Shown here: one piece after another, positions 1,530-63,236 of the stretch
Layout of the letters: the number at the start of each line of letters is the position of its first letter
Numbering within the stretch: the first letter of the stretch is position 1
DNA from: Labia minor
Taxonomy: Eukaryota > Arthropoda > Insecta > Dermaptera > Spongiphoridae
Reading direction: 5' to 3'
Length of the DNA stretch: 64,000 nt
Assembly (NCBI GenBank): GCA_963082975.1
Contig: OY720346.1
Coordinates: forward strand, 70,113,267-70,177,266
Made by a program: the position numbers and the translations under genes
Notes under the pieces: generated by a model
Databases searched by the model: none
What the model was told of the DNA's origin: nothing
What the model saw: only the letters and a program-made list of their open reading frames with translations

Positions 1530-2065
1530 CATATCTCGCAAATTTGAATTGGATTAAATAACATATATTAATTTAAATTAAATTAAATTAATTCAATTAT
1601 AAATTAAAATTAATAAATAATATTTATTAAACCAGCGAAAGTTTGGCTCTATTTTGATGGCACCACGTCACGTGTTGGCGCGTGAGATTTCCAGTGTTAA
1701 AAAATTAATTCTGGTACTTTCAGCAATTCAATTTTCGATGTTGAGATTTTGATGTTTTTGATGTTATAAATAATATTTATTAAATTATAATTTAATTAAT
1801 TTAATTTAATTTAAATTAATAAATATTATTTAATCAAATTCAAATTTGCAAGATAGTCGAGTGGATAGTGGAGTGTTTGGCTCTTTGTTGATGGCACCAC
1901 GTCACGTGTTGGCGCGTGAGATTTCCAGTGTAAAAAAATTAATTCTGGTACTTTCAGCGATTCTATCAGGCTGAAATTCTATATATAGCAGTTTTATACA
2001 ATTATTAATCATGTGAAAAATTATCAAACATATATCTTTATTTTTACGGTCACACACACACACAC
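1530..2065 (-). mobile_element. RC-A copy 1, rearranged
   Basis: It contains two blocks with the RC-A body (ttgatggcaccacgtcacgtg at about 1655 and 1890) separated by an inverted piece of the AT-rich part with gatagtcgagtgga at 1852-1868. The second block runs on to tttttacggtcac and a short CA run at 2046-2065. This looks like one copy inserted into or recombined with another. Confidence 0.65.
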
Positions 2066-3053: not shown

Positions 3054-3689
3054 CTGGAGTATTTCACAAATTTGAATTCGATTAATTAACATATCTTAAG
3101 GTGCCGTCTCCCTTTCCGAGTTTGGCTATCATCATGACTAGGATGCCCTTAGAAGCTGCCCAGCCATAATGATTTTTCTTGGGAATGTTAATGCGATGGT
3201 TTACCGATGCCTTCCGCATGTATAGAACCAGGAACTGACAGTTCCTGGTGACGGAGGCAGCTGGTGTTAAATTGAATTTTATTAGAAAAATTTGTTCTTA
3301 TTTGTAATCAAACGCCGACTTCTTGTGTAGAAAATTGCTACTCTATACTCTCGGCTAGCTGCCTCCTTCATTAACATATATAATATTTAAATTAAATTTA
3401 ATTAATTCAATTATAAATTAAGTATAATTAAATTGGATTAATTAATTAATTAAAAAAAATTAAATGTACAGTATAGTATTGTTATTCAATAAAATTAATT
3501 AATTAACATATATTAAATTTAAATTTAAAATCTTCATTTTTAAGTCAAAATTTAAAAATTTAAAAAATTAATTCGCGTGTTTAGCTCTTTGTTGATGACA
3601 CCAGGTCACGTTCTGACGCGTGATTGGCAGTCAACGTGTTAAAAAATTAATTCCGGTACTTTCAGCGATTCATTCAAGCTGAAATTCTG
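3054..3689 (-). mobile_element. RC-A copy 2, interrupted
   Basis: It starts with ctggagt and the AT-rich arm, is split by an unrelated 275-base insertion at 3095-3369, then resumes to the cacgt-type box (3590-3630) and gctgaaattctga. The microsatellite half is missing. Confidence 0.65.
3095..3369. mobile_element. Unclassified 275-base insertion with 10-bp target duplication
   Basis: GC-richer than its surroundings; splits RC-A copy 2 with ATTAACATAT on both sides (3085-3094, 3370-3379). It contains an odd perfect palindrome of 11-base arms ACCAGGAACTG around one A (3227-3249), and ggaggcagct(g/a) occurs inside and, inverted, at the right end. No poly-A tail and no open frame. Confidence 0.65.
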
Positions 3690-4932
3690 AACAATATGAA
3701 TTCTTTGTAATAACATACATATATAATTTACATCAAAAAATATAATTGAAAACGGAGGAATATTAGGAAATTGGGAGTAGGGCAAGATTCGATGATGATA
3801 GCACGAGATAAAGACATTTGTAGAAATTTGTTGCAGTCGAAAACTAGAAATGAAATTGAAACACTTTTTTTAAACAGATAAAATCATGTTAGACAAAACA
3901 AAAACACAGGTATATAAACAAAAAAAAAAGGGAGAGTCTTTTCAAAAAATGTGTGAAAAAGTTCTGAATTCATTAATGATGCATCATATTAATACGTTCT
4001 AAATACTTAATACTTTAAAATAATATTTAATTACTAAATTTCTTTGACATAAATACAAAAAAAAATATTTTATTTAAAAGTATATAATTAACATAAATAA
4101 TTTAAAATCTAAACTAGTTAACTTGTTCTTTTTAGTTCAAAGTATATTATTATTATTATTATTATTATTATCATTATATAAGAATATAAATATCATCTAA
4201 AAATAATAAATAAATATTGAACAAAATAATCTTTTTGAGGCTAAAGTTAAAATGAAGTAAATATTAAATTAATTTGAAAAAAACAAATTTAGATTTTATT
4301 GAGAAAAACACAATAATATTTATTAAACTATTTATATTATATTTGATTAAATTTTCTATTAAAAAAGTAAAAAAAAAACTACCTTTACAACTTTTTTCCA
4401 AAATACAGTATTATTCCGAAAAAAATGATTCTTTATATACTTTCACCATATTTTCGAATCGTTTAAGTAATATTACTTAGCAAGAAATATAAAAATGACA
4501 TCACGACTTCAAGATCAAATGAATATGTATAAAATATTAAAAATTATATATATATTTATATGATTTATTTTAGAAAAGTACGAATTTATTTTAAAATGAA
4601 ATACTAGTATTATAGATACAAAGGAAGACTTGCTTTTTTTTGTATTTATATAATTAATATAACTATTATAAATAAATAAATTGAGATATTGGTTCGTATC
4701 AGGAAATAGGAATGTTTAGGTAGTAATCAAATAGAAAAAAATGAAGGAATAATATTGATAATAATAAAAATTAAAATCATAAATTTCTCTTGAAAAGTTT
4801 GTTTTAAAAATAATATTATATATTCATATACACGTACATTATTAGATAATTGAAAGAAATTTATTTTTTACTTACTCAGGTATGAATATATAGTAATGCC
4901 CTTTTATATAAATCATTGACTTGATATTAAGT

Positions 4933-7960: not shown

Positions 7961-8706
7961 TAACAATATTATGTGATGTATAAAAGAAACCACATAATAA
8001 AGAAATGAACTATTTCAATGAGTAAGTCTATACATTTTGATTCTTTAAAAAATAAGTTATCCTTTAAGTATATAACAATAACCCAGTTACCACAATCACC
8101 TAAAGGTGAAAATGATAATAAAAATCTTACTGAAAAAAATTATCTAACACAATAGATGAAACTAGAAAGTTGTAGAACGAGTAGATAAATAAATAAAGAT
8201 TCTCATTCAAACAATTTAATTAATCTCCAATTATTAATTAAAAGAACTTGAGAAATAAAAGTGGCAATAAACGAATGTGAAATATATTCTTAAATGGATT
8301 TAAATAAATGCATTTGCAGTTTATATATATATATATATTGTAAGATGATTTTAGTTAAAATTAAAAAATTTTCTTCTAAAAATACTGGAATTAAAGAATA
8401 ATTGGCTTTAAAAAAAAATAAACTGATAACCGTGACATTTCATAGATTTAATAATATATAGTATATAAATCGACTATATTAATGAATAAATTAAATTAAA
8501 TTTAATACTATTTTATATAAGCAAGTATTATTTAATTAATATAATTAAGTACAATTTTTAGTTATTTTATAGATAAAAAATATAAATATACATATATAGT
8601 CTTCTATATTTTTGCAAATTGTTTAAAATTTATTGAAAATTTAATTTAATTAAACAATTTTTAAATTAATGAAAAAAACAAAATGTTTGTTAAATATTAA
8701 TGTATT
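7961..8706. other. AT-rich intergenic DNA
   Basis: No recognisable feature between MITE-F and RC-A copy 3 apart from (TA)n at 8322-8338. Confidence 0.6.
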
Positions 8707-9280
8707 ACTATCACGAAAATTTTCAATGATTTTGATGTTTTTTACGTTTTGACGGTCCCTGAGTCATTTTCACTAAGGTTGAGAAAAATGTCTGTGTGTG
8801 TAGGTTTGTAGACAAGATTACGCAAAAACGGTATGAGATAGATTAATGAAATTTGGTACATGGGCATTATTCAAAATTCGAAGTTTTCTATCATTTTTTG
8901 AGAAATGTAGCTCAACCGGTTGAAGGTCATTACCTAAAACGTTTTGATTTTTTTTCCTCTAAACTGACCGTAAAAATAAAGATATATGTTTGATAATTTT
9001 TCATATGATTAAAGATTGTATAAAACGGGTATATATAGAATTTCAGCTTGATTGTATCGCTGAAAGAACTGGAATTAATTTTTTTAATTTTTTAACTCAT
9101 TGATTGCCAATCACGCGCCAGCACGTGACATAGTGCCATCAACAAAGAACCAAACATCCGCTGGTTTAATAAATATTATTTATTAATTTAAATTTATAAT
9201 TAATTAAATTTAATTTAAATATAATATATGTTAATTAATCCAATTCAAATTTGCGAAATAGTTGAGTGGAGACACTCCAG
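8707..9280 (+). mobile_element. RC-A copy 3
   Basis: This near-complete copy runs from ACTATCACG through a short TG run, the acggt...atgaaatttggta segment and the cacgtgaca box to GAGTGGAGACACTCCAG. Its 5' hairpin has decayed, but the 3' stem-loop is perfect. T-rich sequence follows the 3' end. Confidence 0.75.
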
Positions 9281-13897: not shown

Positions 13898-13984
13898 TAT
13901 ATATATATATATATGTAGTTATAATTAGATGGTTTCAGTTTTATATTTTTCAAAGTAGCAACTTATAGACTGTTTCGATCAAGG

Positions 13985-20455: not shown

Positions 20456-21388
20456 CTGGAGTGTCCCCACACAACTATCTCGCAATTTTGAATTGGATTA
20501 ATAATTACTAATTAAATTAATATACATATAATTAATTATTATATTATTATTATTATATTTAATTATTATTATTATTATTATATTTAATTATTATTATTAT
20601 TATTATATTTAATTATTATTATTATTAGTATTATTATTAGTATTATTATTATTTCCAAGTTTTCACACTCACACACTCAGCACAAGTGCTGGTAAACTTT
20701 GACCTACCCCAGTTGTTCTATTCTTTAATGTGGGGTTAGGCTCGGACGCTGTGGAGAGGGAATTCACCCTAACCCACAGTTATTCTCATTCTTTGTTTTT
20801 TTTTCATTAAATTATTATTATTATTATTATTATTATATTTAATTATTAATTAAATTTAATTTAATTAATTATAAATTATAAATTAAAATTAATAAATAAT
20901 ATTTATTAAACCAGCGTGTGTTTGGCTCTTTATTGATAACACCACGTCACGTGCTGGCGCGTGATTGGCCATTTTAAAAAATTAATTCCAGTACTTTCAG
21001 CGATTCAATCATGCTGAAATTCTATATATAGCAGTTTTATACAATTTTTAATCTTGTGAAAAACTATCAAACCAATATCTTTAGTTTTACGGTCACTTTA
21101 GAGGAAAAAAAAATGAAAACATGGTAGGCAATGACCCTCTTCCGGTTGAGCTATATTTCTCAAAAGTTGATAGAAAACTACGAATTTTGAATAATGGCCG
21201 TGTACCAAATTTCAATATTCTAGCTCAAACCATTTTTGCGTAATCTTGTCTACATACACACACAAAAACGTGTGACATTTTTCTCAACCTCAGTGAAAAT
21301 GACTCAGGAACCTTCAAAACGTTTAAAAACATCAAAATCTCGACATTGAAAATTTTCGTGATCCCAATACTATCTCTGGCGAGAAAGT
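20456..21388 (-). mobile_element. RC-A copy 4 with ATT microsatellite and insertion
   Basis: From ctggagtgtccccac to ctatctctggcgagaaagt. The AT-rich arm has expanded into (ATT)n blocks (20540-20655 and 20816-20840) that flank an unrelated GC-richer insert of about 150 bases (20653-20807). Confidence 0.75.
20653..20807. other. GC-richer insert within RC-A copy 4
   Basis: Between (ATT)n blocks; holds hairpin CAGCAC-AA-GTGCTG (20678-20691) and gtggggttagg with its inverse cctaacccac about 45 bases later. Unidentified; possibly a short SINE or structured element. Confidence 0.45.
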
Positions 21389-23163: not shown

Positions 23164-23733
23164 ACTAACTCGCCAGATCACGAAAATTTTCGATGTTGAG
23201 ATTTTGATGTTTTTATACGTTTTGACGGTACCTGAATCATTTTCACTAAGGTTGATAAAAATGTCTGGGTGTGTGTATGTATTTAGAAAAGATTATGCAA
23301 AAACGGTTTGAGCTAGAATAATGAAATTTGCTATACGACAGTGGTGGGTAAATACTTTTAAGGGCGGGCCAAAATGAAATTTTCAATTTTCTTTTCTGTT
23401 TCTATTTTTAGATATATGGGATTTTGAAAAAAATTTAATTCCAGTAACGTTCAATTTTTTTTTCTATTATTTTCTTTTTTACTATCTCAAACCGTATATT
23501 GAATCGCTGAAAGAACTGGAATTAATTTTTTTAATTTTTTAACTCATTGTTTGCAAATCACGCGCCAGCACGTGACGTGGTGCTATTAACAAAGAACCAA
23601 ACATGCGCTGGTTTAATAAATATTATTTATTAATTTTAATTTATAATTTATAATTAATTAGATTTAATTTAAATATAATATATGTTATTTAATCCAATTT
23701 AAATTAAGAGATAGTCGAGCGGAGACACTGCAG
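23164..23733 (+). mobile_element. RC-A copy 5, composite
   Basis: The 5' part (actaactcgcc to agctagaataatgaaatttg) breaks at about 23336 into a hAT-like end (cagtggtgggtaaatacttt) and a 90-base segment also found next to copy 8 (30105-30195). An internal actatctca at about 23489 then leads back to RC-A sequence and a 3' end gagcggagacactgcag. The 23039-23311 frame that overlaps it is fortuitous. Confidence 0.65.
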
Positions 23734-24947: not shown

Positions 24948-25156
24948 ACTATCTCGCCATTTTTTAACACGTTGACTGCCAATCACGCTCCAGCACGTGA
25001 CGTGGTGTCATCATCAAAGAGGTAATCAAGAGCTGGTTTAATAAATATTATTTATTATTTTTAATTATAATTTAAATAAGTAAATTTAATTTAAATATAA
25101 TATATGTGAATTAATCCAATTCAAATTTGCTAGATAGTCGAGTGGAGACACTCTAG
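24948..25156 (+). mobile_element. RC-A copy 6, internal deletion
   Basis: ACTATCTCGCC is joined directly to the ttttttaacacgttgactgcc section, so the microsatellite half is deleted. The 3' end is gatagtcgagtggagacactctag. Confidence 0.65.
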
Positions 25157-26860: not shown

Positions 26861-28092
26861 GTTGACCTGTGGCCAGGCACAGAACGGATCGACGGTTTGA
26901 AATAAATTAATTTCCAGCTACTTTTCGCTTTAATGTGAAAATAACCCTTCTCTCTCTTCGTCGATCGGTAATACTACCATTTCCGGTTACTAGATATACA
27001 CCAAAAGTTGATCAATTCATCATACTGATGCATTAAGTAAATATATCAAATTTTCGATCTGTACATCGCCAGAGATAGTATTGCGTTCACGAAAATTTTC
27101 GATGTTGAGATATTGATGTTTTTATACGTTTTGAAGGTTCCTGAATCATCTTCACTAAGGTTGAGAAAAATGCCTGTGTGTGTGTGTGTGTGTGTGTATG
27201 TGTGTATGTATGTAACCAAGATTACGCAAAAACGGTTTAAGCTAGAATCGTGAAATTTGGTTTCAAAATTATTCAAAATTCATAGTTTTCTATCAACTTT
27301 TGAGAAATGTAGCTCAACCGGAAGGGGATCATTACCTACAACGTTTTGATTTTTTTACTTCTAAAGTGACCGTAAAAATAAAGATATATGTTTAATAATT
27401 TTTCACATGATTAAAAATTGTATAAAACTGCTATATACAGAATTTCAGCTTGATTGAATAGAATACCGGAATTAATTTTTTAACACTGCAAATGTCACGC
27501 GCCAACACGTGACGTGGTGCCATCAACAAAGAGCCAAACATGCGCTGATTTAATAAATATTAATTATTAATTTTAATTTATAATTTATAATTAATTAAAT
27601 TTAATTTAAATATAATATATGTTATTTAATCCAATTCAAATTGCGAGATAGTCGACTGGAGACACTCCAGATTGTTTCTGTTAAGAAAATGAATGATTGG
27701 TGGAGATTTGTAAAATTCTCCAGATGTGAAATTTGGTGTGAAAACAATACCTCCCTTACGATAGAAAGGGAAGGGTTATTTTCACACCAAATTTCACATT
27801 TTTTTACATATCTCCACGAATCATGCACTTTGTATTGGTTTTATCCTCAAGAAAAATCATCTTCATTAGTTTTTTCTTAATTTAAAATTATATGACGTCA
27901 CCCAGCCCTTCATGACGTCACAACCATCTCCCACTTATATATTATAAATAAAATAAAATTAAAAATATTTATGTTATATCCATATCTGTTTTTTATTGCA
28001 TTAATAGATACATTAAAATTGTTTCTGTAGCTGGAAATTAATTTATTTCAAACCGTCGGTCGGTTCTGCGCCTGGCCACAGGTCAACTTATT
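26861..28092. mobile_element. RC-B inverted pair with both 3' stem-loops outward
   Basis: Left boundary gttgacctgtggccaggcac and right boundary gcgcctggccacaggtcaac are both the RC-B 3' terminus, so a reverse copy (26861-27762) faces a forward half copy (27763-28092). RC-A copy 7 sits inside the reverse one at 27065-27670. The short frames at 27622-27880 are repeats, not genes. Confidence 0.65.
27065..27670 (+). mobile_element. RC-A copy 7, inserted in an RC-B copy
   Basis: This full-length copy (atcgccagagatagt to gagacactccag) has a (TG)n tract at 27175-27200. RC-B sequence lies on both sides (ending at about 27058 and resuming at about 27673), so RC-A is the younger insertion. Confidence 0.75.
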
Positions 28093-28243
28093 TACTCTTA
28101 TACTGAAATAAATAAATAGAAATTTATTTCTATTACTTATTGTTAGTTATTTTATTGTTTATATTTTAACAAAATCTATTATTTGGAATTATTTTATACT
28201 ATTATACATTGGGAATAACGATTTTTTTCAACCTATGTTTATA

Positions 28244-29175
28244 TTAGGTTGGGGAAAAAGAAATCCATTATTTTTTCAGTAGATGGCTGTAGTGATCGAT
28301 ATCTCGTAAATTATCGATCAAACAATTTCAAATTTCTGCTCGTTGTCAAGGTAACAGTTCGCACTAAAAGAATTCGTTTGCAGTTTTTTGTTTTGTCCAT
28401 TCAGTTCTGAGTTACACGGCGTTAAAGATGGAAGTCAACAAAGAGAAAATTCGGTACATTTTACAGTTTTTCTTTGATAAGGGCGAAAATGCAAGTCAGG
28501 CGGCTGAAAATGTGAATAGTGTTTATGGTCCCGATACTGTAACAGCTAATTACGCGCAATTTTGGTTTCGTCGATTCCGTTCGGGTATTTTTGACGTTAA
28601 GGATGCCCCTCGCACAGGCAGGCCCGTCGTCGAAAATGTCGACAAAGTCACTGAAATCATCGAAGTGGACCGGCATGTTAGTAGTCGTAGCATCGCCCAG
28701 GAGTTAAAGATCGACCACAAAACAGTTTTAAACCATTTGCACAAAGCTGGGTTTAAAAAAAAGCTTGATGTTTGGGTGCCACACCAATTAACACCAAAAA
28801 ACATGATGGATCGAATTTCCATCTGCGAAGCCTTGGCCAAACGTAATGAAATCAACCCATTTCTTAAACGGATGGTGACTGGGGATGAGAAATGGGTCAC
28901 ATACGACAACATTATGCGAAAGCGATAGTGGTCAAAGCGAGTTTTAGTGATAAGAAATTGGCATCAAGGGAAGAGTGTGAAAATCAATTGCTGGAGTTTT
29001 TCGCTAATAAGGACCAAGACTTTTATGAGAGAGGCATAATGAAGCTACCATTAAAATGGCAACAAATTATAGAACAAAATGGTGCATATTTGACCTAAAT
29101 CGGACAATGCAAAACATGTTAAATAAAGTCTTGAAGTTCACGTAAAAATAATGGATTTCTTTTTCCCCAACCTAT
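28244..29175 (+). mobile_element. Mariner element (cecropia-like), internally deleted
   Basis: 932 bp flanked by TA (28242-28243 and 29176-29177). Terminal inverted repeats of about 33 bases begin TTAGGTTGGGGAAAAAGAAA, with the terminal base differing at the right end. A normal mariner is about 1.3 kb; here the central part of the gene is missing, so the copy can at most be mobilised in trans. Confidence 0.92.
28428..29098 (+). pseudogene. Mariner transposase, internally deleted
   Basis: The first 160 codons are intact: N-terminal helix-turn-helix DNA-binding region (IRYILQFFFDKGENASQAA), linker GRP at about residues 64-66, the WVPHQLTPKNMMDR motif (about 115-128) and the first catalytic aspartate in TGDEKWVTYDN (D153). 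Just after this the sequence jumps, with a frame shift, to the C-terminus (FSDKKLASREECENQLLEFF to IMKLPLKWQQIIEQNGAYL, stop 29096-29098). The second and third acidic residues of the DD34D triad are lost, about 115 residues. A full protein would have about 345. Confidence 0.92.
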
Positions 29176-29711
29176 TATATTTAATCGAATATATGGTAAA
29201 TAATATTTATAGATATAAAATTAAAGATATTAATATGTTTATAAATATCACCTATATATAAAAAATAATAATAAAAATTTTTAAGATAATATTGGTTATA
29301 GAACCATAATGACTAAATCTAAGAAAGTCATGCTAACTACTAAAAGTGGCAAAATAAAATTTAAAAATGCATGTTCTAAATTCAATAATTCATTTACTTA
29401 AAGATTAATCTTCGAATCTCATTTTATTTAATTGAGGTCAGAGAACATAGACTATCCTTTTTTCCTCTCTCATTCTCTCTCAATGTACTATATTTTCATT
29501 ATACTTGACCAAGAATCATTAATATCCAACCCAGATTTAATGTATCAATTATCAGTTGATGTACGATAAAATTATTATTTTAGATAATATTCATGAAATA
29601 TATGTAATTATTTCCCATTTGCAAGCAAATATTTTTAAATTCGACTAAGAAATTTTATATATATATATAATATAGATTTAATTTTTTATTTTATTGTATA
29701 TTTGTATATAT

Positions 29712-29951: not shown

Positions 29952-30195
29952 GTATCTATGTATATTTGTTTACCTTTAATTTGTATGTGTTGCTATTTAT
30001 TATGTTTTTCTAATTATGAATGAATAATTGAATATATATGAGTATTACTTTATGAAGAGTCTCTGGAAGCTGATCTTACAAATTAAATAAATAAAAATTT
30101 GTGTCTTACTGTTTCTATTTTTAGATATATGGGTTTTTGAAAAAAATTTAATTCCAGTAACGTTCAATTTTTTTTTTTCTGTTATTTTCTTTTTT

Positions 30196-30803
30196 ACTAT
30201 CTCAGAGATAGTAATACGATCACGAAAATTTTCGATGTCGAGATTTTCATGTTTTTATACGTTTTGAAGGTTCCTGAATCATTTTCTCTAAGGTTAAAAT
30301 AAATGTCTGTGTGTGTATATGTATGTGTGTATGTATGTAGACAAGATTACGCAAAAACGGTTAGAGCTAAAATCATGAAATTTTGTACATTGGCATTATT
30401 CAAATTCGTAGTTTTCTATCAACTTTTGAGAAATGTAGCTCAACCGGAAGAGGGTGATTACCTACAACGTTTTGATTTTTTTTCCCTCTAAAGTGACTGT
30501 AAAAATAAAGATATACGTTTGATAGTTTTTCACATGATTAAAAATTGTATAAAACTGCTATATACAGAATTTCAGCTTGATTGAATCGCTAAAAATACCC
30601 GAATTAATTTTTTAACACTGCAAATCTCACGCGCCAACACGTGACGTGGTGCCATCAACAAAGAGCCAAACATGCGCTGATTTAATAAATATTATTTATT
30701 AATTTTAATTTATAATTTATAATTAATTAAATTTAATTTAAATATAATATATGTTAATTAATCCAATTCAATTTTGCGAGATAGTCGAGTGGAGACAATC
30801 CAG
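30196..30803 (+). mobile_element. RC-A copy 8
   Basis: Full-length, with ACTATCTC-AGAGATAGT (the hairpin loop lost), a TG tract, all body blocks and a 3' end gagtggagacaatccag. The 90 bases before it (30105-30195) match the segment inside copy 5. Confidence 0.75.
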
Positions 30804-31261: not shown

Positions 31262-31919
31262 ACTATCTCTACTACTAAAATTTTCGATGTCGAGATTTTA
31301 ATGTTTTTATACGTTTTGAAGGTTCCTGAATCATTTTCACTAAGGTTGAGAAAAATGTCTGTCTGTGTGTGTGTGATTACGCAAAAACGGTTTGAGCTAG
31401 AATCATGAAAATTGGTATACGGGCATTATTCAAACTTTGTAGTTTTCTATCAACTTTTGAGAAATGTAGCTCAACCAGAAATGTGTCATTACCTACCACG
31501 TTTTCATTTTTTTCCTCTAAAGCATAGGTTCCCAAAGTGGTCTATTTAGACTCCTGGGGGTCTATTTTAACCTCCACGGCAGCGAATAACAAATTTGGGG
31601 CTCAATGAAGTGAAAATGGGGGTCTACGGAGGTCTAGGGGATCCACGATGGATTTTTGGAATATGTCTAAAAAAAAAGGTAAATTGTTTTGCCGACATGG
31701 CTTTTGACACATTTTTTTATTTTTTCCCAATATGTCTTTAAAAAAAGGTAAATCGTTTATAAAAAATCAAAATCAATTTAGGGGGTCTACCCAAAACCGA
31801 AAAACATGCCAAGGGGTCCACGACAAAAAAAAGTTTGGGAACTTATGTTCTAAAGTGAAGTAAAAATAAAGATATTGTTTGATAATTTTTTATATGATTA
31901 AAGATTGTATAAAACTGAT
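31262..31919 (+). mobile_element. RC-A copy 9, 3'-truncated and carrying a hAT MITE
   Basis: Starts actatctctactac, runs to cctctaaag, is interrupted by the hAT MITE at 31523-31847, resumes at ttctaaagtgaag and stops after aaaactgatatatata. The whole 3' half is absent. Confidence 0.7.
31523..31847. mobile_element. hAT-type MITE inside RC-A copy 9
   Basis: Ends CATAGGTTCCCAAA and TTTGGGAACTTATG, flanked by CTCTAAAG / TTCTAAAG. The interior has gggggtctattttaacctcc and T/A homopolymer runs. Confidence 0.8.
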
Positions 31920-32167
31920 ATATATATATAATTATAATTCTAGAAATACATTTTTGAAAAATGAATTCACTATCGGTTTTCTTATAATAGGTTTTTAATT
32001 AGAAAGTATGGAATAAATCAATATTTAATTTAATAATATTGGTTTTATGAATAAATATTATTAACTAAATATTTATATTTTTAATATGTCTACCAATTTA
32101 GTTTCTAAGGAAAATATCTAATGAGATAATTAATAAGTTGTTTAGATAATTAGTAAAATGTACTTTT

Positions 32168-34222: not shown

Positions 34223-34680
34223 GAGTTTTGAAGACTCTCGAAAAAAACAATAAAAAATAGTGGAAAAAGGAGAAAGTGTAATTATTGTAGTTTTAAAAAG
34301 TGCAAAAATTTTCAAAATTGATCAAGAGATAGCAGAGAAATGAATATTTATATAAACGCTGAAAGCCGGCGAGTACGGACTCGGGGTCCCACCGTTATGA
34401 TAGAATCTGTCGAGCGAGTACGTACTCGGGTTCCCGGTTTGAGGGGTTAAAACCGAACAAAAGATCTAAAAACTTTGGAAGAAAAATATAAAAACATCTC
34501 AATAACATCATATGGATCATTCTCCCATATAAACTAAAAATTAATCGATATTTTAATTATTTAAAAGTAATCAATTAATTAATTTAATATATAATATGAT
34601 TTCTTAAAGCAAAATATGTTTTAGTTAATTCATTTTGTCAAATAATTATTGATTTAAATTTTATATTTTTAAATATTAGA

Positions 34681-34742
34681 TGGAGTGTCTCCACTCGACT
34701 CTCTCGCAAATTGAATTGGATTAAATAACATGGCAAGATAGT
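34681..34742 (-). mobile_element. RC-A copy 13, 62-base miniature
   Basis: Only the terminal stem-loop end (tggagtgtctccactcgact) with the adjacent ctctcgcaaattgaattgg and, directly after ttaaataacat, the opposite end ggcaagatagt. It is a solo-like deletion product containing both termini. Confidence 0.55.
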
Positions 34743-38185: not shown

Positions 38186-38493
38186 CATATAGATACAATA
38201 TTGTAAACATCCTTAGACTTTAACAAATTTTAAACGCTTAGATTTATTATATATGATCGATTTTTATACAAAATATTGTTAAAAAAGGCTTAATATGAAG
38301 TAAATTTAAAATACATATCTATAATTATTTAGTAAATAAAATTGTACATAAGATTATAGAGTTAAACTTTCATATAATATATCTTATCTTATTATACTAG
38401 CAAAAATTGTATATATATATATATATATTTGTATTTTTGATATATTAAACCGCTTCAAGGATTTTTTTGAAGTTCACACCATAGATAATTTTT

Positions 38494-39099
38494 ACTATCT
38501 CGCCAGAGATAGTATTGCGATCACGAAAATTATCGATGTCGAGATTTTGATGATTTTATACGTTTTGAAGGTTCCTGAATCATTTTCACAAAGGTTGAGA
38601 AAAATGTCTCTCTGTGTGTGTGTGTGTGTGTGTAGACAAGATTACGCAAAAACGATTTGAGCTAGAATAATGAAATTTGGTATACGAGCATTATTCAAAA
38701 TTTGTAGTTTTCTATCAACTTTTGGGAAATGTAGCTCAACCGGAAGAAGGTCATTACCTACAACGTTTTGATTTTTTTTCCTCTAAAGTGACTATAAAAA
38801 TAAAGATATAGGTTTGATAGTTTTCACATGATTAAAAATTGTATAAAACTGCTATATATAGAATTTCAGCTTGATTGAATCGCTGAAAATACCGGAATCA
38901 ATTTTTTAACACTGCAAATCACGAGCCAGCACGTGACGTGGTGCCATCAACAAAGAACCAAACATGCACTGGTTGAATAAATATTATCTATTAATTTTAA
39001 TTTATAATATTTATAATTAATTTAATTTAATTTAAATATAATATATTATGTTATTTAATCCAATTCAAATTGCAGGATAGTCGAGTGGAGGCATTCCAT
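38494..39099 (+). mobile_element. RC-A copy 10, inserted in Hel-D
   Basis: Full-length with an intact 5' hairpin (ACTATCTC gcca GAGATAGT) and (TG)n at about 38612-38632. Hel-D sequence (atagataatttt / ttattataaagaaaaatcgatc) continues on either side without an obvious target duplication, as expected of a rolling-circle insertion into a T-rich target. Confidence 0.78.
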
Positions 39100-42658: not shown

Positions 42659-43388
42659 ACTATCTCGCCAGAGATAGCATTGAGATCACTAAAATTTGTT
42701 GATTTTGATGTTTTTATACGTTTTGAAGGTTCCTGAATCATTTTCAATAAGATTGAGAAAAATGCCTGTGTGTGTGTGTGTGTGTATGTATGTAGACAAG
42801 ATTACGCAAAAACGGTTTGAGTTAGAATCGACTATCTCGCAATTTCAATTGGATTAAATAACATATATTATATTTAAATTAAAAATTTAATTAATTATAA
42901 ATTAAAATTAATAGATAATATTTATTAAACCAGCGCATGTTTGGCTCTTTGTTGATGGCACCACGTCACGTGTTGGCGCGTGATTTGCAGTGTTAAAAAA
43001 TTAATTCCGGTAGTTTCAGAGATTCTATCACTCTGAAATTCTATATATAGCAGTTTTATGCAATTTTTAATCATGTGAAAAACTATCAAACATATATCTT
43101 TATTTTTACGGTCACTTTAGAGGAAAAAAAACCAAAACGTTGTAGGTAATGACCTTCTTCTGGTTGAGCTACATTTCTCAAAAGTTGATAGAAAACTATG
43201 AATTTTGAATAATGCCCATGTACCAAATTTCATGATTCTAGCTCAAACCGTTTTTGCGTAATCTTGTCTACTAAAATACACACACACACACAGACATTTT
43301 TCTCAACCTTAGTGAAAATGATTCAGGAACCTTCAAAAAAACATCAAAATCTCGACATTGAAAATTTTCATGACCTCTGACGAGATAA
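42659..43388. mobile_element. RC-A copy 11, head-to-head fusion of two copies
   Basis: Bases 42659-42829 are the forward 5' third of RC-A, up to gagttagaatcg. At 42830 the sequence switches to a reverse copy (actatctcgcaatttcaattgg...) that continues to gacgagata at 43388. The two are joined with no spacer. Confidence 0.7.
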
Positions 43389-44177
43389 TAAATAGAATAA
43401 TTTTAATTTTAGTAATATTCAAGGGTTAACCCCACATGAATTTAATTTTATTTCTTCTTAAATAAAATCATTTAAAATATAAATTAATTAATTTCTTTTT
43501 AACACAATTATTTTGATTTTTGTTTAACTTTTGTTTATAAATTTTAATGTTATAAACACATCTTTTAACATCAAATTAATGTTCTATTAATTTTCTATTA
43601 ATTTAATTGCTAATACAAATGAAATTAATTTTCAATATGCTTGTAAAAGCTTAAAAAAATAAATTAAATTAAAGATATATAGTATTAAAAATTATTTATA
43701 AGTATTTATATCATGATTTATTAGATCAATTAAATTTTAAACTAAAGTTTAAAAATAAATATTTTATTATTTATAAACAGAATGAAGAAAATCTTACCGG
43801 AAATTATTTTGTTTTAATTTTATGGATCATCTGATTTTTATAAAAACAGGCGGAAATAATAAATTAAGACCAAACACATTCAAATAATACACACTTGGTA
43901 TTTGTTTTTGTTTAATTGGAATATTTCCGGCCTCTATTAGTTGCACCGTTATAATATATGGTCAATACTTTTTAAGTAAATCCCACCCATGTCAAACACA
44001 CACATTTTAGTTCTATTATTTTTCCCATAATAGATGCTTGTTTAAGAAAATTCTACTTATCATACATTGTAAATAAATAAAATTAACATTCAAGTATAGT
44101 TTATTTTTGAAAATATTTATTCAGTGTTAAAATAAACTAGATAGTGCATAAAAACCAAAGAATAATTTACGATGATA

Positions 44178-45518: not shown

Positions 45519-48500
45519 GTAAGCGTAATTTGAATTCAATCCATCTAGCAGATTACTATGAATTAGAAACAAAATAAGGTAATTGTTTACAAACCGGGTT
45601 GCTCGAGGGATTTGGATAAAGCTTTGCCAGTGGGTTCCTTTTTTAATTCCAAAAAAACTATCCTTATTCAATATTTCTCGGTCTCTTCTAGTTTACGAGA
45701 TAAAAATTATTAAAATTTGCATATAAATCCATTGACATTCTATTTAGCTGCCATGTTTTATTAATTTGACCAGCAGACTAATTTTCTGGGTTTTTTTTCG
45801 GTTCGGTTTGGGTATAGGAAAATTTTTTAATTTTTTAATAATAAGTTAATATTTAGTGAATTAGTCAATAAAGGATTATTAAATAGCTGCTCATTCATAA
45901 CTAGTTTATTTGACAGACTTTAATAATTTTTATCTCGTATACTCGAATAGACCGAGAGATATTGCATAGGGAAAGTTTCTTTGGAATTAAAAAAGGAATT
46001 CACTGGCAAAGTTTCATCCAAATCCCTGAGCCTTCCCGGTTTGTAAACAATTACCCAAATTAATATTATCATACTAGTACTAAATGAATGAAAACAATCT
46101 ATTATTTTCTAGCCATTTAATTATTATCACAACCCTAAATTCAGTAGCGCAACCAGAAATTTTTAATGGGGGGTGCAAATTTTTTTTTGTAGATAAATTT
46201 TTTTATTCATTTTTATTAACTTGTACATGAAATTAAGCATAAGGAATATTAAATAGAGAAACATTAAAGAAAAATCGATAAAAGTAGATTTATATTCAAA
46301 AAGAGCAAAAACATTAACTATTAAATATAAAAATCTAATTTGCTTCTTTATGTAAATAATTTTCTTATTCATTTTTATTTAAATGTACATTAATTAAATA
46401 TAAGCAATATTAAATCGACAAACAATTGAAAAAATAGATGAACATATAGATATAGCCAAAAAGAAAAAAAAATATAATTAAATATAGAAATCTAATTTTC
46501 TTCTTTGTTGCTGCAAAATTTCAAAAATTTCTTCCAAAATAAAAAATGTTTACTAGTTTGATTTAATTTTTTCATAAATATATTTTATTTTCAGTAATTC
46601 AGTATTATTTGCAATATATTTTTTTTTAATTAGGGGGTGCATATCCACCCATGCACTCCCCCTGGTTGCGCCAATGCCTAAATTGTCCTATTTTAATTTA
46701 GCTGTCTACAATCTAATTTCTAATTTCTACAAAAAAAATTCTTGTTTAATTAGGAGATTTAAAATGAATAGATAATTATATATATTTACCCATTGTAAAT
46801 AGAAAAAATTTCAATGAAATTACTTAGAGTATATTGTTAAAAACATTTAATACTTATTATAAATAATTAAATTAATTTAAATTAATTTTCGTATTATAAT
46901 AATTGGTAGAAATAATAATATTAAAATGCAAATTAAGTTATTTAAAATCCAGGAATCACAAGTGTTTATAATATAAAAAATTGAATAGTTGATCCATTTG
47001 TAAATTTTCACTCATAGCAAAACTCTCAAGGAGTTTATAAAGCATAGGTTCCCAAACTTTTTTTGTGTCGCAGACACCTTGTTATGTTTTTCGGTTTTGG
47101 GTAGACCCCCTAAATTGATTTTGATTTTTTATAAAAAATTTTACCCTTTTTTTTAGAGCCCTATTGAAAAATCAAAAATGTTTTAAAAGCCATGTCGGAA
47201 AAACAATTTACCTTTTTTTTTAAGAGACATATTGATAAAAAAAATCAAAAAAGGTTTCAAAATCCCTGTCGGAAAACATTTTACCTTTTTTTTAGAGCTG
47301 GGAAAACACGTAGACCCCCATTTTCATTTCATGTACCCCCAAATTTGTTATTCGCTGCCATGAATCCCCTGGAGGTTAAAATAGACCCCGTTGGGAACCT
47401 ATGTTCTAAAGCTTAATATTGGGAAAAAATAAATAACTTCGCAATTTTTCAATTGTTTCATTAAAAATGAAATTTTTCGATCTTAAGTTTTCAAAATTAA
47501 TATTGCTTGAACAATCTACAATTCTTTGCCAGCTAATTTAATTAAATGTTTCTTCGAGTTTAATATTCTTCATCGTACTTGGAAATCGTAGAGAAATCGC
47601 ATTCTTATTCATCAATTAAAAGATAAACTTCCATTAAGTTTTTTTAATAATAAAATTATAGAAAATGTTACTGTTAAAAAACAACATAAACATTATTTGT
47701 ATGTATAAATATAAAAAATAAGTTATTTTTACTTTTTATCTAGTATAAATTAAGGAAAAGGGGGACATCTTTCATTTTTAATATCTAATAATAAATGTGT
47801 AAAAAAAGTAATTATAGTAAAAATTTTTATTTTAATATAATATAGAATAGTAATATTTATGTCATATGACATTTAAAGAGAAAGTATTTATTTTATAAAA
47901 TGATATTAATATCAGGAAATGTTGATTTATTAATTTTCAAAAGTAATACTAGACCCTTCACACCAGCTAATTCTCTTGTGAAAGTATTTCTTATTTTAAA
48001 TATTAAATCGATTATAATAATTTTTAAAGAAATATAGAAATTAAAAAAAATTAAGGTTATATTTTAGAATAAGAAAATTACATTAAAAAGTCATTTTGAA
48101 ATATTAAACCCATAATATATTTATTTAATATTTTTATTAACTCATTGCTTAATATTTATTCAAAAAGTATTGAAAGTATTAATATCCAATCGTGAAAGTT
48201 AATTTTAGAGTGAGAATAAATATCATTCAGAAGACAAGTGAATTAAATTGAAACTAAAGAACAAACTCGATACGTTTAATAAAATATTGAGATTTTGTAA
48301 ATTGTTTAGATTTGTATCCCGTTAAACATCTGTTTCCTTTTACAATTGAGATACAAATTAAGTAAAAGGGCTTAATTAAGAGGGGTGGGCAGAGTATTAT
48401 GAGTATTATAAAGATGGGAGTTTATTTATAGTTCAGGTTTAATTGGTCACCCCATTGCTTTTAAAATAGCTATAAAATAGCCATAAATAAATATTTATTA

Positions 48501-51500
48501 CAAGAGCAGGATTGAATTCCTTCAGACATAAATCCCCTCCCATAATAATCTAAAATAATAATAATAGTATTGACTACATGAGTTCTAGATAAGCGATCCT
48601 TTAAGCCTTAAATTATTGTTTATCTGAACTATTTTATATAATAATTTATAATTACTATAAATGATTGGATATATAAGTAAAAAGGTAATTATATTGAATG
48701 GTCATCCAGTTATGGATTTGGATAAAACTTTACCACCTTTTTTAATTACAAATAAACTTACTTAGGCAATTTTTGCGAGTCGCTTCTAGTTTACGAGATA
48801 AAAAAAATTAAAGTTTGCTAGATTAGCTTATTATGAACCTCGAAATATGATGTCATTAAGTAATGTTTTATTAACTAATCCACTAATTATTCACTTATTT
48901 CTAATTTTCAGTTTGGATATAGGGAAATCATTTAATTAATTAGTTTTTTAATATCTAATCCGAGAAAAAAAAAACCCGAAAATTAGTGGAGCCCTCTGAT
49001 GGTCAAATAATAAAACATGGTATTTAGTTAAATAGAATATCAATGGATTTATATGCAAACTTTAATCCTTTTTATCCCGTAAACTAGAAGCGACCCGCAA
49101 AAATTGCATAAGAAAAGTTTATTTAGAATTAAAAAAGGAACTCACTGGTAAAGTTTTATCCAAATCCATGACTGGATGACCATTCAATATAATTACCGTA
49201 AATAATATAAAATGAAATATTTACATATGACATTTCTTGTGAATAAAATCCTAAAAAAATTGATTAAAATGTTTTCTTTGTGCCACTTTCAAGTAAATCT
49301 CTCTCCCTTAATAGACATTAATTTTGCAATGGTTGGTGGGTCCAGAGGCGACTCCGCATGTCCAGGATGTCTCCCTTGAGCGACGATCTCCCTGCGAGCG
49401 ATCACAGGTGGCTGCATGGGAGCAAAGACATTGCTGTATTTTGCCCGAGGATCTGCGTAACTTCTATTTAACTACCGATGGATTCCGTCTCGTCTGGAAT
49501 TACGAATATGCAGGTAAAAACAAACATTCCTTTAATTCCAATTCATTACAAACCTATCAATTCGTATAGTATAACACTTGATATTATAAAAATTAATCTT
49601 AACCAAATATAAATAGATGAGATTAAAATTCTTAATATTTTTTTTTTTTTAATTATAAAAATATTTTTTTTATTATAAAGATATTTTAACAAATAATGAG
49701 AAAAATAACACTAATTTTAATAGTTAAGATGTTAGTTTATTCTTTTATATAGTTTTTATAATTTTACATTCTCAATTTGTTAAATTGAATTAAACTACTC
49801 TCTATTTGATGATCATAAAACTCTGTACTCTTTAAATTCATAATTTTTAAGTTATTTAATTATAGTGAAAAGAGAAATTATTATTATACTTCTGAATATC
49901 GATGGTATTTGAGAATTTGGATCTCCCCGGGACACGCCTCTATTTAATCACTGAATCCCTCAGGTCCTATAAAAAAAAAGCTGTATCGAAATTGGCACAA
50001 CCGGATAGCGGTCAAACGACCTGGAAACTCTACTTGTAACGAGATACAAGCCATCAGAATCTATTACTCGCTGCCTCGTCATTTCAATCAGATTAAAAAA
50101 CAATGTTTTTTTAAAACTTCTCATAAAAATTATAATTTTAAATGATAATTAGATGTTTGGCACATCTACAGAGAATATCGTATATAATATAAAGTTGTCC
50201 ATTCTATAAATTTATATTTCATAAATAAACTATAATTGTAATCATTTTTATAGATATTAATATCATATGATAAATTATTTTATTATTATTATTCATTATT
50301 TTAATAATGATTTTGCCATTAAAAATTGTGAGAAAACCATTTCTTTCACCACATCAAATGTAATCAAATACAATAATTACCTATTTTTCTGAAAACGAAT
50401 ATTTATTGTATATTATTTAGGTATTTTAAAATAAAATATTTAGTATGTTTCTAAATCTCTCTATAAACCTAATTATAATTTAATTGTTTATGTTAATTTC
50501 TTTTTTTCTCAATCTTGAACGAATTTATAGTATTTATTTCTTTCCATTTTAAATTTCATTCTATAACTGAAATAGAAAATTCAATAATTAGTTTAAGCAT
50601 TTGATTTTAATATTTACTATTATATAAATAATTTTTTATTCATATTTTTAATAAAATTATTAATATTATTATTATTATTAATAATGAAGTTAATTTTTGT
50701 TTGTGAAATTCCCATTGCTGACTTTCATCACATGGGATGTACCTCGTTTTTGTTTCTTAAATATCTGATTTACTTCTCTTTAAATAAATTAATGATCATT
50801 TATTAGAATATAATAGAAGAAACATAACGAACCGGGAAAACGATCTTAAATGTGCTCTGATCTCGTTTCAATGAATGATGTTGAATGGGAAAACGATTTT
50901 TTTATTGATATATTCATTCATACAATTCATTTCAGAAATTTATCTCAAAGCATGTTGTGAATTTATTTTATATCTTTTTAAAATTTCAATTTAAAAATTT
51001 GTTAAAAATATTAAATACAAATAAAAACATGTACAAAAAAATAAATAAATAAAATTGAAAATTAATTGAAAATAAAGAATAATTAAATTTAAAGAGTAAA
51101 ATTTGACTGGGGTAGAAATGGATGAGTTTTCAAGATTTAGAAAACTTTTTATAAAATAAAATACTTCATATTTCATAAGTCAATTCCAAATTCAATATTT
51201 AGTTGATTTCGAAGTTATTGCAAAACAAAGATTTTGGATAACTTATGAATTTTATTTTTCTTTTCTCATTTATAATTCATTTTTCCCTCTATGATTTTTA
51301 AGGAGAGATATTACCTGTGGGAAATATGAGAATTAATTCACTATCAGATTTGCGTCGTTTGGCTGGTCTGAAATGCGCAGAGGATCCTCAATGGCCAACT
51401 CTTTTGGATATAGAAGAAGCAAATAAATATGCTGCGCCATATGATCTTCCAGGAACATATCCAAGTCAAAATCCCAGTGGCGGATTTCAACAATTAATTA

Positions 51501-54792: not shown

Positions 54793-55392
54793 AAAATAGC
54801 TAAAATTGTATATATATATCTTGGTTCTCAAAAACCGCTCTAACGATTTTTTTCAAATTTACACTAGATATAGTATTTATAAAGAAAAATTGAGTTTTAT
54901 TGATCATATCTCTTGAAACATACAGCTTCATTATTTATTTCTTAATTTAAAATTATATATGGAATCCGTCAAAAATGGCATCCATTTTGAAATTTTACTC
55001 CCGCCTTTTTTTAAAGGATATTGTATTAATATTTTTTTTATATTTAACATATTTTAAAAATTTTTATTTAATTTCGAAATAAAATTAAAAATATATATTT
55101 TAATAATATTTTATAATTATAAATTACGATAAATATATATCATTCTTCCAATAAAAAAAAATATTCATGCACTTAGAAACATACCTAAAAATACATATTT
55201 ATGTATTATTGAGGACCCCAGTTCCATTCATTTTAATCAGATTGATGCAATGATAATAATTGTAATAAATCAATTAAAAAATTGTATATCAGCTCGGTGT
55301 CCCAAGTATTAATATTACCAGCCAAACCCAATAATAATGAATTAATTTTTTTTAACTTAATTACCGAGCCGAGGCTCAGGGTCCCGGTATGA
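54792..55392 (+). mobile_element. Hel-D, Helitron-like non-autonomous element
   Basis: The 5' part is agctaaaattgtatatat and ggttctcaaaaaccgctctaacg; the 3' part is a GC-rich palindrome in accgagccgaggctcagg followed by gtcccggtat. In better copies the 5' end reads TCTTATCTTATTATACTAGC and the 3' end is the hairpin CCGAGC-CGAG-GCTCGG then GGTCCCGGTACTAA, matching the Helitron signature 5' TC and hairpin plus CTRR 3'. Confidence 0.6.
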
Positions 55393-58034: not shown

Positions 58035-58384
58035 TTGTTTTTTTGAGAGTTTAATAAATACATATTTTATTAAAATAAATATTTTTAATTTTATTTCGAA
58101 ATAAAATAATACATTTTTCAAATATTTTAAATATAAAATAAATAATAATACAATATCGATTAAAGAAAAAAAAAGACAAATTTCAATATGGATGTCATCC
58201 ATTTATAAATTTAAATTAAGAAAAAATTATTGAAGATGATGTTTTTCCAGATTGAAACCAATACAGATCGATTTGTATTTATTAATATTATCTATGGTGT
58301 GAATTTCAAAAAAATCTTTACAGCGGTTAATTAATAAATTAATTAATATATATACAATTTTTGCTAGTATAATGAGATCAGATT
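58035..58384 (-). mobile_element. Hel-D 5' half
   Basis: The minus-strand 5' end is at about 58384 (tctgatctcattatactagc). It contains ccgctgtaaagattttttt and gatgacatccatattgaaa; the 3' end is lost. Confidence 0.5.
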
Positions 58385-58387
58385 AAT

Positions 58388-58470
58388 CTGGAATGTCTCC
58401 ACTCGACGATCTCACATTTGAATTGGATTAAATAATATAAATTATTTTTAAATTAAATTATAATTATAAT
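58388..58470 (-). mobile_element. RC-A copy 14, terminal fragment
   Basis: ctggaatgtctccactcgacgatctcac plus part of the AT-rich arm; the rest is missing. It lies between two Hel-D pieces. Confidence 0.5.
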
Positions 58471-58479
58471 TATCTCTGT

Positions 58480-58695
58480 TGTGAATTTCAAAAAAATCGT
58501 TAGAGCGGTTTTTGAGAACAATGAAACAAACAAACAAACAATTTTTACTCGTATAAGAAGATAAGATATATATTTTTAATTTTATTTCGAAATTAAATAA
58601 AAAATTTTAAAATATTTTAAATATAAAAAAAATATTAATAAAATATCTTTTAAAAAAAGGCGTGAGTCAAATTTCAATATGAGTGTCGTTTATAT
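58480..58695 (-). mobile_element. Two Hel-D pieces, the second broken by a hAT relic
   Basis: A 5' end piece (cgttagagcggtttttgag ... agaagataaga) is followed from about 58566 by a second piece (atttttaattttatttcg ... tttcaatatgagtgtcg). The second piece is interrupted by the hAT element starting at 58696. Confidence 0.45.
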
Positions 58696-60965: not shown

Positions 60966-61424
60966 CTGGAGTGTCTCCACTCGACTATCTCGCAATTTGA
61001 ATTGGATTAAATAACATAATATATTATATTTAAATTAAATTTAATTAATTATAAATTATAAATAATAAATAATAAATATTAAACCAGCGCATGTTTGGCT
61101 TTTTGTTGATGGCACCACGTCACGTGTTGGCGCGTGAGATTTGCAGTGTTAAAAATTTAATTCTGGTAATTTCAGCGAATCAATCAAGCTGAAATTCTAT
61201 ATATAGCAGTTTCATACAATTATTAATCATGTGAAAAATTATCAAACATATATCTTTATTTTTACGGTCACTTTAGAGGAAAAAAAATCAAAACGTTGTA
61301 GGTAATGACCCTCTTCCGGTTGAGCTACATTTCTCAAAAGTTGATAGAAAACTATGAATTTTGAATAATGTCCATGTACCAAATTTCATCATTCTAGCTC
61401 AAACCGTTTTTGCGTAATCTTGCC

Positions 61425-61496
<72 letters not shown>

Positions 61497-61607
61497 TTTT
61501 TCTCAACCTTAGTGAAAATGATTCAGGAACCTTCAAAACGTATAAAAACATCAAAATCTCAACATCGAAAATTTTCGTGATAGCAATACTATCTCTGGCG
61601 AGATAGT
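60966..61607 (-). mobile_element. RC-A (Helentron-like, non-autonomous), full-length copy 12
   Basis: This is the best-preserved copy of the commonest repeat here. Read on the minus strand it starts with ACTATCTCGC inside a small hairpin (ACTATCTC gcca GAGATAGT), has a TG microsatellite (61437-61491 on plus as CA), a conserved body with aaacggtttgagc, the box cacgtgacgtggtgcc, then GCGAGATAGT and a terminal stem-loop GAGTG-GAGA-CACTC followed by CAG. A 5'-terminal arm repeated inside the 3' end, then a stem-loop, is the asymmetric layout known for Helentron-associated elements (HINE/DINE-1). No coding capacity. Confidence 0.8.
61437..61491. repeat. (CA)n microsatellite in RC-A copy 12
   Basis: About 26 uninterrupted CA units preceded by (CATA)n. 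The same position in other RC-A copies holds much shorter TG tracts. Confidence 0.95.
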
Positions 61608-61868: not shown

Positions 61869-63236
61869 ATGCCATTCAAAAATTTGAACACCAACATTTC
61901 TGTTCAGAAGCTGTCTCCTGGAAATGAAACAACTGTGAATTATACGTGTGATCAAGAATTACATCAACATATGAAGAGATTACCGCAAGAATTAGTAGGT
62001 AATATTCTGAAATATTCAACATTTCAACAATTGCTTGTTTTTAGTGAAGATCCATATTATTACGAAGTGATTATCAGGTATGGGATTGTTTCTTCTTTAC
62101 CTCCAATATCATTGCACGGTCGGAATTCCTTCTACGCGGAACAGTTTTTTCAACGATTCTATTTATTAATAGAAACTGTTTATGTATCTTCGTGGAATTA
62201 TGAATTTTTAATTGAGTTTATAAAAAATTTTCCCATGCCACGATTAAAAAAAATTAATATTGAAAATTGTGAGGTAGGTAGAGAAATAAAAATAAAAATA
62301 ATAGAAAATCTTCTAGAAAATTTAAAATGTCTTATAGAAGAAGGTAAATTGCCAACTTGTCCTACTTTCAATACGGTAGAAGAAATTAGTATCTTTGTAA
62401 TTGGGTATTTGCCTGATATTTTTCTATGGGCTATTAATTATTTTTTTCCAAATTTAAAAAAGTTACATCTAAGCAAAAATTATTTTCTAAATCCTACATT
62501 TTTTAAGAATATCAACAAACTTGAAACATTAAGTTTATGCGCACTGGCAAAAACTAAATCCTTGGAAACAATAGCTAACTTAAATAATTTAAAAAAATTA
62601 AGAATTATTCCTGAAAATGAGACCTGGCCATCTTATTTGTCTAAATTAGAAAATTTAGAACACCTAGAGATTGAGTACGGTGGCCCAGAAGAAATTCTCA
62701 GGAGTTATTTTGAAATTGCATCAGTATGTAAATTGAAAAAACTAAATCTTTACTGTATTCAATCCTTTACAGAACAACTAGTTAAAGTGTTTCTTGAAAA
62801 AAGGTTACCATTAACAAGTTTGACAATATTAAATTGCGACGATATCCATAATAATGCCTTGAAATTGCTTAATCAATTTGAAAATTTTACAGATCTCCGA
62901 TTAGTACACTGTAAATTATTAAAATCTAGTGATCTAGAGGATATCCATAAAATAAAAAAATTAAATATTTTATCTTTGCAGGATTGTTCATTAATATGTA
63001 ATGAAGTACTTCCATACATTTTTCAATGTAAAACATTATATCAATTAATTCTTCAGGGCACACAGATTAAAATTGATTTTAGTACATTTAAAAATAACTT
63101 GCGTCTTCATACATTGATCATTCAAAAAAAGGACAATTATAATGAGTATAGGTCCTTGAAATCTAATTTGAATCCTCTAGATAAGGGTCGAAATTTAAAA
63201 AAATTATTACCTTTTGCAAGTATAATCAAAAATTAA
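61869..63236 (+). CDS. F-box-like leucine-rich-repeat protein, single exon
   Basis: A 455-residue intronless reading frame, from the first in-frame ATG (context taataATGc) to TAA. Residues about 37-75 (RLPQELVGNILKYSTFQQLL) look like an F-box; from about residue 115 to 430 there are degenerate leucine-rich repeats with LxxLxL cores such as LKKLHLSKN, LETLSLCAL, LEHLEIEYG, LKKLNLYCI and LNILSLQDC. Such proteins usually act as substrate receptors of SCF ubiquitin ligases: the F-box binds Skp1 and the repeats bind the target. No signal peptide follows this Met; the frame stays open upstream to 61770 and would add a hydrophobic stretch, but has no ATG. The family name and substrate are not recognisable. 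An AATAAA overlaps the stop (63236-63241), another lies at 63362-63367. Intronless form and isolation suggest a lineage-expanded or retro-derived gene (inference). Confidence 0.85.
   Translation: MPFKNLNTNISVQKLSPGNETTVNYTCDQELHQHMKRLPQELVGNILKYSTFQQLLVFSEDPYYYEVIIRYGIVSSLPPISLHGRNSFYAEQFFQRFYLLIETVYVSSWNYEFLIEFIKNFPMPRLKKINIENCEVGREIKIKIIENLLENLKCLIEEGKLPTCPTFNTVEEISIFVIGYLPDIFLWAINYFFPNLKKLHLSKNYFLNPTFFKNINKLETLSLCALAKTKSLETIANLNNLKKLRIIPENETWPSYLSKLENLEHLEIEYGGPEEILRSYFEIASVCKLKKLNLYCIQSFTEQLVKVFLEKRLPLTSLTILNCDDIHNNALKLLNQFENFTDLRLVHCKLLKSSDLEDIHKIKKLNILSLQDCSLICNEVLPYIFQCKTLYQLILQGTQIKIDFSTFKNNLRLHTLIIQKKDNYNEYRSLKSNLNPLDKGRNLKKLLPFASIIKN

Follow-up and report, generated by a model that had tools for sequence, protein, structure and literature searches.

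RC-A, a dispersed non-coding repeat family of Labia minor that is probably a DINE-1-like, non-autonomous Helentron-type element

Which class of mobile element gave rise to RC-A, a dispersed repeat whose only letter-perfect copy lies near 61 kb in a stretch of 64,000 nucleotides of Labia minor DNA (contig OY720346.1, assembly GCA_963082975.1; hereafter the window)? We report that RC-A is very probably a DINE-1-like family of Helentron-associated interspersed elements (HINEs), non-autonomous and non-coding members of the Helentron-type rolling-circle kind, in an AT-rich genome. An earlier note on this DNA had proposed a Helentron-like family, and the coordinates it gave for the 61k copy (copies are named by their approximate position in the window) were exact, with the element on the minus strand and the parts laid out as described. 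Its Helentron-like reading is supported by those published hallmarks of DINE-1/HINE elements (PMC4067079, PMC2374699) that can be looked for in 64 kb: RC-A has subterminal inverted repeats (subTIRs), the 5' one of which takes in an arm of a further inverted repeat; it carries a microsatellite; its 3' subTIR is followed by a stem-loop; and it inserts into T-rich DNA and lacks a long reading frame.

Read on the minus strand, the 61k copy begins, after a T-rich flank, with ACTATCTCGCCAGAGATAGT and ends with GCGAGATAGT-C-GAGTG-GAGA-CACTC-CAG, which is followed by C-TAATTTTT (Table 1). A perfect hairpin occupies its first 20 bases, the left arm lying inside the 5' subTIR ACTATCTCGC; this hairpin is a diagnostic part of RC-A that was absent from the layout in the earlier note. 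The 3' inverted repeat is internal, its near end being 18 nt from the CAG end, and is followed by the stem-loop; in this copy, folding prediction favours an overlapping hairpin, TGGAG-ACA-CTCCA, over that stem-loop. RC-A has no long frame and is classified here as non-coding.

Table 1. Positions in the window of the parts of the 61k copy, of the other RC-A loci and of RC-B
Feature	Position	Strand	Remarks
RC-A reference copy (61k)	60966..61607	-	642 bp; K2P 0.027 to consensus, lowest among 7 aligned copies
5' subTIR ACTATCTCGC, 61k	61598-61607	-
5' terminal hairpin ACTATCTC-GCCA-GAGATAGT, 61k	61588..61607	-	DNA fold z = -8.5; 8/8 pairs
Central TG/TGTA microsatellite, 61k	61426..61496	-
3' subTIR GCGAGATAGT, 61k	60984..60993	-	exact reverse complement of 5' subTIR
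3' stem-loop GAGTG-GAGA-CACTC, 61k	60969..60982	-
3' end CAG, 61k	60966..60968	-	then one non-T base and T-rich flank
RC-A copy, all parts recognisable	38494..39099	+	inside repeat X; paralogous empty sites in window
RC-A copy	30196..30803	+	5' hairpin arms present without loop
RC-A copy	27060..27670	+	outer 5' end damaged; nested in RC-B copy
RC-A copy	20456..21388	-	split by AT-rich satellite and foreign sequence
RC-A copy	8701..9280	+	without 5' terminus
Two RC-A pieces	23164..23733	+	5' fragment and deletion derivative from 23481
RC-A 209-bp deletion derivative	24948..25156	+	5' ACTATCTCGCC(A) fused to 3' part
RC-A 63-bp deletion derivative	34680..34742	-	5' ACTATCTTGCC(A) fused to 3' end
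RC-A fold-back composite	42659..43389	-	two inverted 5' ends
RC-A fragment, interrupted	31262..31926	+	profile match
RC-A 3' fragment	58388..58480	-	profile match
RC-A internal/3' fragments, rearranged	1532..2053	-	profile match
RC-A 3' fragments	3348..3690	-	profile; one match short and AT-rich
RC-B complete copy	60098 to about 60730
RC-B 5' part	6400-7016
RC-B rearranged copy	26856-28093		fold-back with two inverted 3' ends; hosts RC-A 27k insertion

The terminal motifs recur in the window far beyond expectation. With at most one mismatch allowed, ACTATCTCGC was found at 16 sites (0.69 expected; 0 of 100 shuffles reach 16) and GAGTGNNNNCACTC at nine sites (0.20 expected; 0 of 100 shuffles reach nine). 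A profile HMM built from seven RC-A copies gave 23 matches in the window at a cut-off of E ≤ 1e-3, two of which lie in the RC-B family, and none in 20 simulated 64-kb first-order Markov sequences. The other 21 matches, when grouped by eye, correspond to about 15 RC-A loci on both strands and span 6391 of the 64000 bases (approximately 10% of the window). The seven aligned copies differ from their consensus by 2.7 to 9.8% (K2P), and the mean pairwise distance is 11%. The profile thus agrees with the previous estimate of at least 14 copies or fragments, and the term high-copy holds inside the 64-kb window, which is the scope of the count. The claim that all these copies share one layout stands in full for 61k and, with mismatches, for 21k, 30k and 38k, where the parts are recognisable; 27k is without the outermost 5' bases, and the remaining copies are truncated, deleted or rearranged. 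RC-A 27k lies within RC-B and RC-A 38k within the dispersed repeat X, and since RC-A is nested in these two repeats its past mobility is shown; RC-A is a real, formerly mobile family. Repeat X itself was noted at 13980-14250, 16200-16460, 54797-55109, 58064-58687 and 38381-38492; upstream of its 16.2k copy lies a T-run followed by ACTGTCTTAGCAGGCAGT, and this copy may represent a third family of such kind.

The two terminal structures are preserved to different degrees among the copies. The RC-A consensus shows the same nesting of a 5' hairpin in the subTIR that has been published for DINE-1 of Drosophila. Four of the 11 readable 5' ends retain the hairpin with seven or eight of the eight pairs, and the other seven do not pass a test with a fixed length of 20 nt (six of eight pairs form in 43k, and 30k has both arms and no loop). 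In the two short deletion derivatives the break falls within the hairpin loop, behind GCC or GCCA, the assignment of the A being ambiguous; of the 5' end they retain no more than 11-12 nt, together with the 3' end, a hint that, if they were mobile as such, the ends carry the signals needed. At the other end, the stem-loop motif (with up to three mismatches) follows the 3' subTIR at 10 RC-A loci, the stem being intact in four (9k, 25k, 34k and 61k), containing a G-T pair in two (38k and 58k) and broken in four (21k, 23k, 27k and 30k). Predicted folding of four of these ten 3' stems gave z-scores between -2.3 and -0.1. Judged from the aligned letters, the changes in the 3' stems are not compensatory, as would be expected of dead copies.

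A second family, RC-B, is built on the same plan. Its 5' end has a T-run, the subTIR ACCGACCGAC and then a (GTCC)n microsatellite, and its 3' end reads GTCGGTCGGT-TCA-GACCTG-GCCA-CAGGTC-AACTTATT, which is T-rich. Of three RC-B 3' ends, one has the exact 6-bp stem and two retain CCTG/CAGG. The ends, the array and the stem-loop sequences differ between RC-A and RC-B, whereas the order of the parts is identical. Their cores share AACGG, ATGAAATTTGGTA, ATCAACTTTTG and AACCGGAAG in conserved order. With the microsatellite included the two families match at E = 6e-7 and 1.8e-8; without it the core matches have E-values of 0.0033 and 0.0046 (12.4 and 11.9 bits, as compared with 7.2 bits for the best of 20 simulated sequences), and because the strong E-values span the microsatellite we grade the likeness of the cores as weak. 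Two families in which the repeats and stems differ and the pairing is kept are better evidence of function than either family alone, and such constancy of architecture under sequence change is in line with a HINE that a Rep/helicase/endonuclease, unseen here, mobilises in trans.

That RC-A inserts into T-rich DNA, as the earlier note proposed, is corroborated by an enrichment of T on both sides of the copies. All 11 readable 5' flanks end with TT; at most 10 of them are independent, as the 23k-inner and 30k flanks are homologous, and the count leaves out 9k, 27k and 58k, whose 5' ends are missing or damaged, as well as the 1.5-3.7k fragments. On the 3' side TT occurs within the first three flanking bases of 7 of the 10 copies, counted without 31k, 42k, 43k and the 1.5-3.7k fragments, which have no stem-loop within three mismatches. 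Among the outer 10 nt, the share of T reaches 0.745 on the 5' side (0 of 20000 random draws) and 0.57 on the 3' side (P = 0.00025), as compared with 0.372 for random positions. The base after CAG is A in four, C in five and G in one of the ten 3' ends, i.e. never T, though the next bases are T-rich, and it differs from the host base in both comparisons (27k and 38k).

The 38k insertion can be compared with paralogous empty sites, since four of five aligned copies of repeat X cross the site without an insert. Its joined flanks, GATAATTTTT/CTTATTATAAAG, compared with the closest empty copy of X (13.98k; GATAATATTTATAAAG), hold about six bases beyond a clean insertion bounded by ACT and CAG, as judged from this one paralogous empty site. 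Either Ts carried by the element, as proposed for Helentrons by Thomas and co-workers (PMC4067079), or a T-rich duplication of about 5 bp (TATTT) could account for the surplus. That some Ts belong to the element is also hinted at by two fold-backs (42659-43389 and the RC-B copy hosting 27k), because both are T-rich outside both ends. When the flanks of the seven two-ended copies are paired as a 5-bp duplication, 6 of 35 positions mismatch, as compared with a mean of 8.0 for permuted partners; with P = 0.28 such a duplication is not supported. We consider it unlikely that RC-A insertions carry a T-rich target duplication of about 5 bp together with one variable, non-host base after CAG. If they did, Helentron integration would be a staggered double nick, unlike that of a canonical Helitron, perhaps made by a LINE-type endonuclease. 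A similar ambiguity is described for DINE-1 of D. yakuba in PMC2374699, and the question has been discussed for DINE-1 in PMC2374699 (2008) and PMC4067079 (2014); RC-A flanks, some of which hold A besides T, could help to settle the target duplication of Helentrons.

The same flanks bear on the possibility that RC-A is a MITE-like cut-and-paste derivative with subterminal repeats, a T-rich duplication of about 5 bp (TWWTT) and a base after CAG that is the element's own. Flank pairs do agree at 61k (TAATT/TAATT) and at 21k and 23k (TTTTT/TTTTT), the seven two-ended copies show the mismatch count given above, and five surplus bases remain at the 38k empty site if the base after CAG is counted as the element's. 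The permutation result shows, however, that T-richness alone accounts for the agreement. Moreover, the ends are asymmetric in RC-A and likewise in RC-B: instead of inverted repeats at both termini, the 3' one is found 18 nt inside the CAG end and is followed by the stem-loop, and we regard a MITE-like origin as highly improbable. Derivation from a canonical Helitron (5' TC, 3' CTRR, insertion between A and T) would account for a 3' stem-loop near the end, for the absence of a clear target duplication and for the non-coding nature of RC-A. It is contradicted in the window by ends of the form ACT...CAG rather than TC...CTRR (one of ten copies, 25k, ends with CTAG, which may be a mutation), by flanks that are T-rich on both sides instead of A and T, and by the presence of subTIRs and a 5' hairpin, so that it appears extremely improbable.

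A rival within the same mechanism class is that RC-A derives from a Helitron2 or another Helitron-like element without an endonuclease domain, i.e. that only the autonomous partner differs. Helitron2 and the Fusarium elements FoHeli1/2 have likewise been described as having inverted repeats that are asymmetric and a hairpin at either end (PMC4067079, PMC5148889). Insertion into T-rich DNA, the microsatellite and the coexisting RC-B with its GTCC array are closer to DINE-1, and such an origin seems distinctly unlikely to us. The HINE/DINE-1-like reading is preferred because the layout recurs, whole or partly, at about 15 loci, the 5' hairpin matches the 'IR' of DINE-1, RC-B has the same architecture, the stem-loop follows the 3' subTIR at 10 loci, the flanks are T-rich and insertions are nested. 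Counted against it are a subTIR whose length of 10 bp and distance of 18 nt from the 3' end both fall below those of mite HINEs, the non-compensatory 3' stems, the 5' ends failing the hairpin test (7/11), the weak RC-A/RC-B core and the approximately six surplus bases at 38k.

Comparison with known systems suggests where RC-A belongs among these elements. DINE-1/INE-1 of Drosophila has in common with RC-A subTIRs, a partial inverted repeat next to or inside the 5' subTIR, a microsatellite, a 3' stem-loop just past the 3' subTIR, insertion at T-rich/TT sites and the lack of a long frame (PMC2374699, PMC4067079). As described there, it differs in having subTIRs of 13 bp (10 bp in RC-A), different ends and a GTCY array (PMC2374699) in place of TG/TGTA, although RC-B has GTCC; with respect to central tandem repeats, none was noticed in RC-A except the AT-rich satellite of one copy. 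According to PMC4067079, the short 5' inverted repeat of Drosophila DINE-1 has its 5' side nested in the 5' subTIR, and this trait separates DINE-1 from mite HINEs; RC-A is DINE-1-like in particular because an arm of its 5' hairpin is nested in this way. HINE-Mo of the mite Metaseiulus occidentalis is likewise non-coding and shares subTIRs, a 3' palindrome and T-rich targets with RC-A, but its subTIRs are palindromic, 12-15 bp long and about 38-60 nt from the 3' end, as opposed to 18 nt in RC-A (PMC4067079). Hel-2 of Lepidoptera and associated viruses resembles RC-A in its inverted repeats, one at the 5' end and others subterminal, in a microsatellite that lies downstream of the 5' one, and in its 3' hairpin, and is unlike it in 5' TC, 3' CTAG, A/T flanks and a (CTGT)n microsatellite (PMC4344730). 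FoHeli1/2 of Fusarium oxysporum share with RC-A a hairpin at either end, terminal inverted repeats that are asymmetric and a T-rich 3' end, but are coding elements of about 5-6 kb with different ends that insert after TNAT (PMC5148889). The kind of element is already well known (DINE-1-type, insects), while the RC-A family itself may be unnamed. A literature search with its terminal letters gave only unrelated titles among the matches listed. Exact-pattern scans of viral contigs (RC-A and RC-B) and prokaryote contigs (RC-A) gave no matches, which has little bearing because relatives of the window's genome may be absent from such collections. As a well-delimited HINE family beside RC-B, RC-A offers a natural comparison of end features that persist despite sequence change; otherwise it represents ordinary repeat biology.

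Following the published model, a Rep/helicase/endonuclease from an autonomous Helentron elsewhere in the genome would recognise the 5' subTIR and hairpin and nick the strand at the T-rich 5' boundary, after which one strand would be peeled off or copied; termination would occur at the 3' subTIR and stem-loop, and the product would integrate into T-rich DNA. The window has 38 stop-to-stop frames that are 75 aa or longer; a Pfam scan of 20 of them, which shorter coding relics would escape, detected no Helitron, helicase or endonuclease family, and no autonomous Helentron was seen among these frames. One match to Relaxase_M (E = 0.059; 14 bits versus a cut-off of 27) was taken as chance. Neither Rfam at its gathering threshold nor a tRNA scan gave a match in the window.

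Several loci are rearranged. The two halves of the 42659-43389 composite are arranged head-to-head, with arms that agree at approximately 86% of 128 positions; the junction lies just before the 3' stem-loop, which is lost. This fold-back looks like the outcome of a strand switch during replication. Elsewhere, 23393-23489 and 30106-30204 have 99 bp in common (94.9%), up to and into the 5' ends of two RC-A copies; capture of upstream host DNA or duplication of the locus is possible. Long self-inverted (palindromic) dispersed repeats, mutually related, were observed at 21963-22470, 48684-49197 and 45578-46055. A mariner-type relic at 28240-29179 has 36-bp inverted ends (97%) and the start of a transposase (HTH_48, E = 1.4e-15), the frame being broken after 186 aa; taken with the AT-rich composition, it points by itself to an animal genome, perhaps that of an arthropod. 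The window also includes a SMI1_KNR4-like frame below the Pfam cut-off. Finally, an open frame of 455 aa at 61869-63236, which is similar to leucine-rich-repeat proteins (LRR_14, E = 3e-5, below the Pfam cut-off), starts 262 bp past the RC-A 61k copy.
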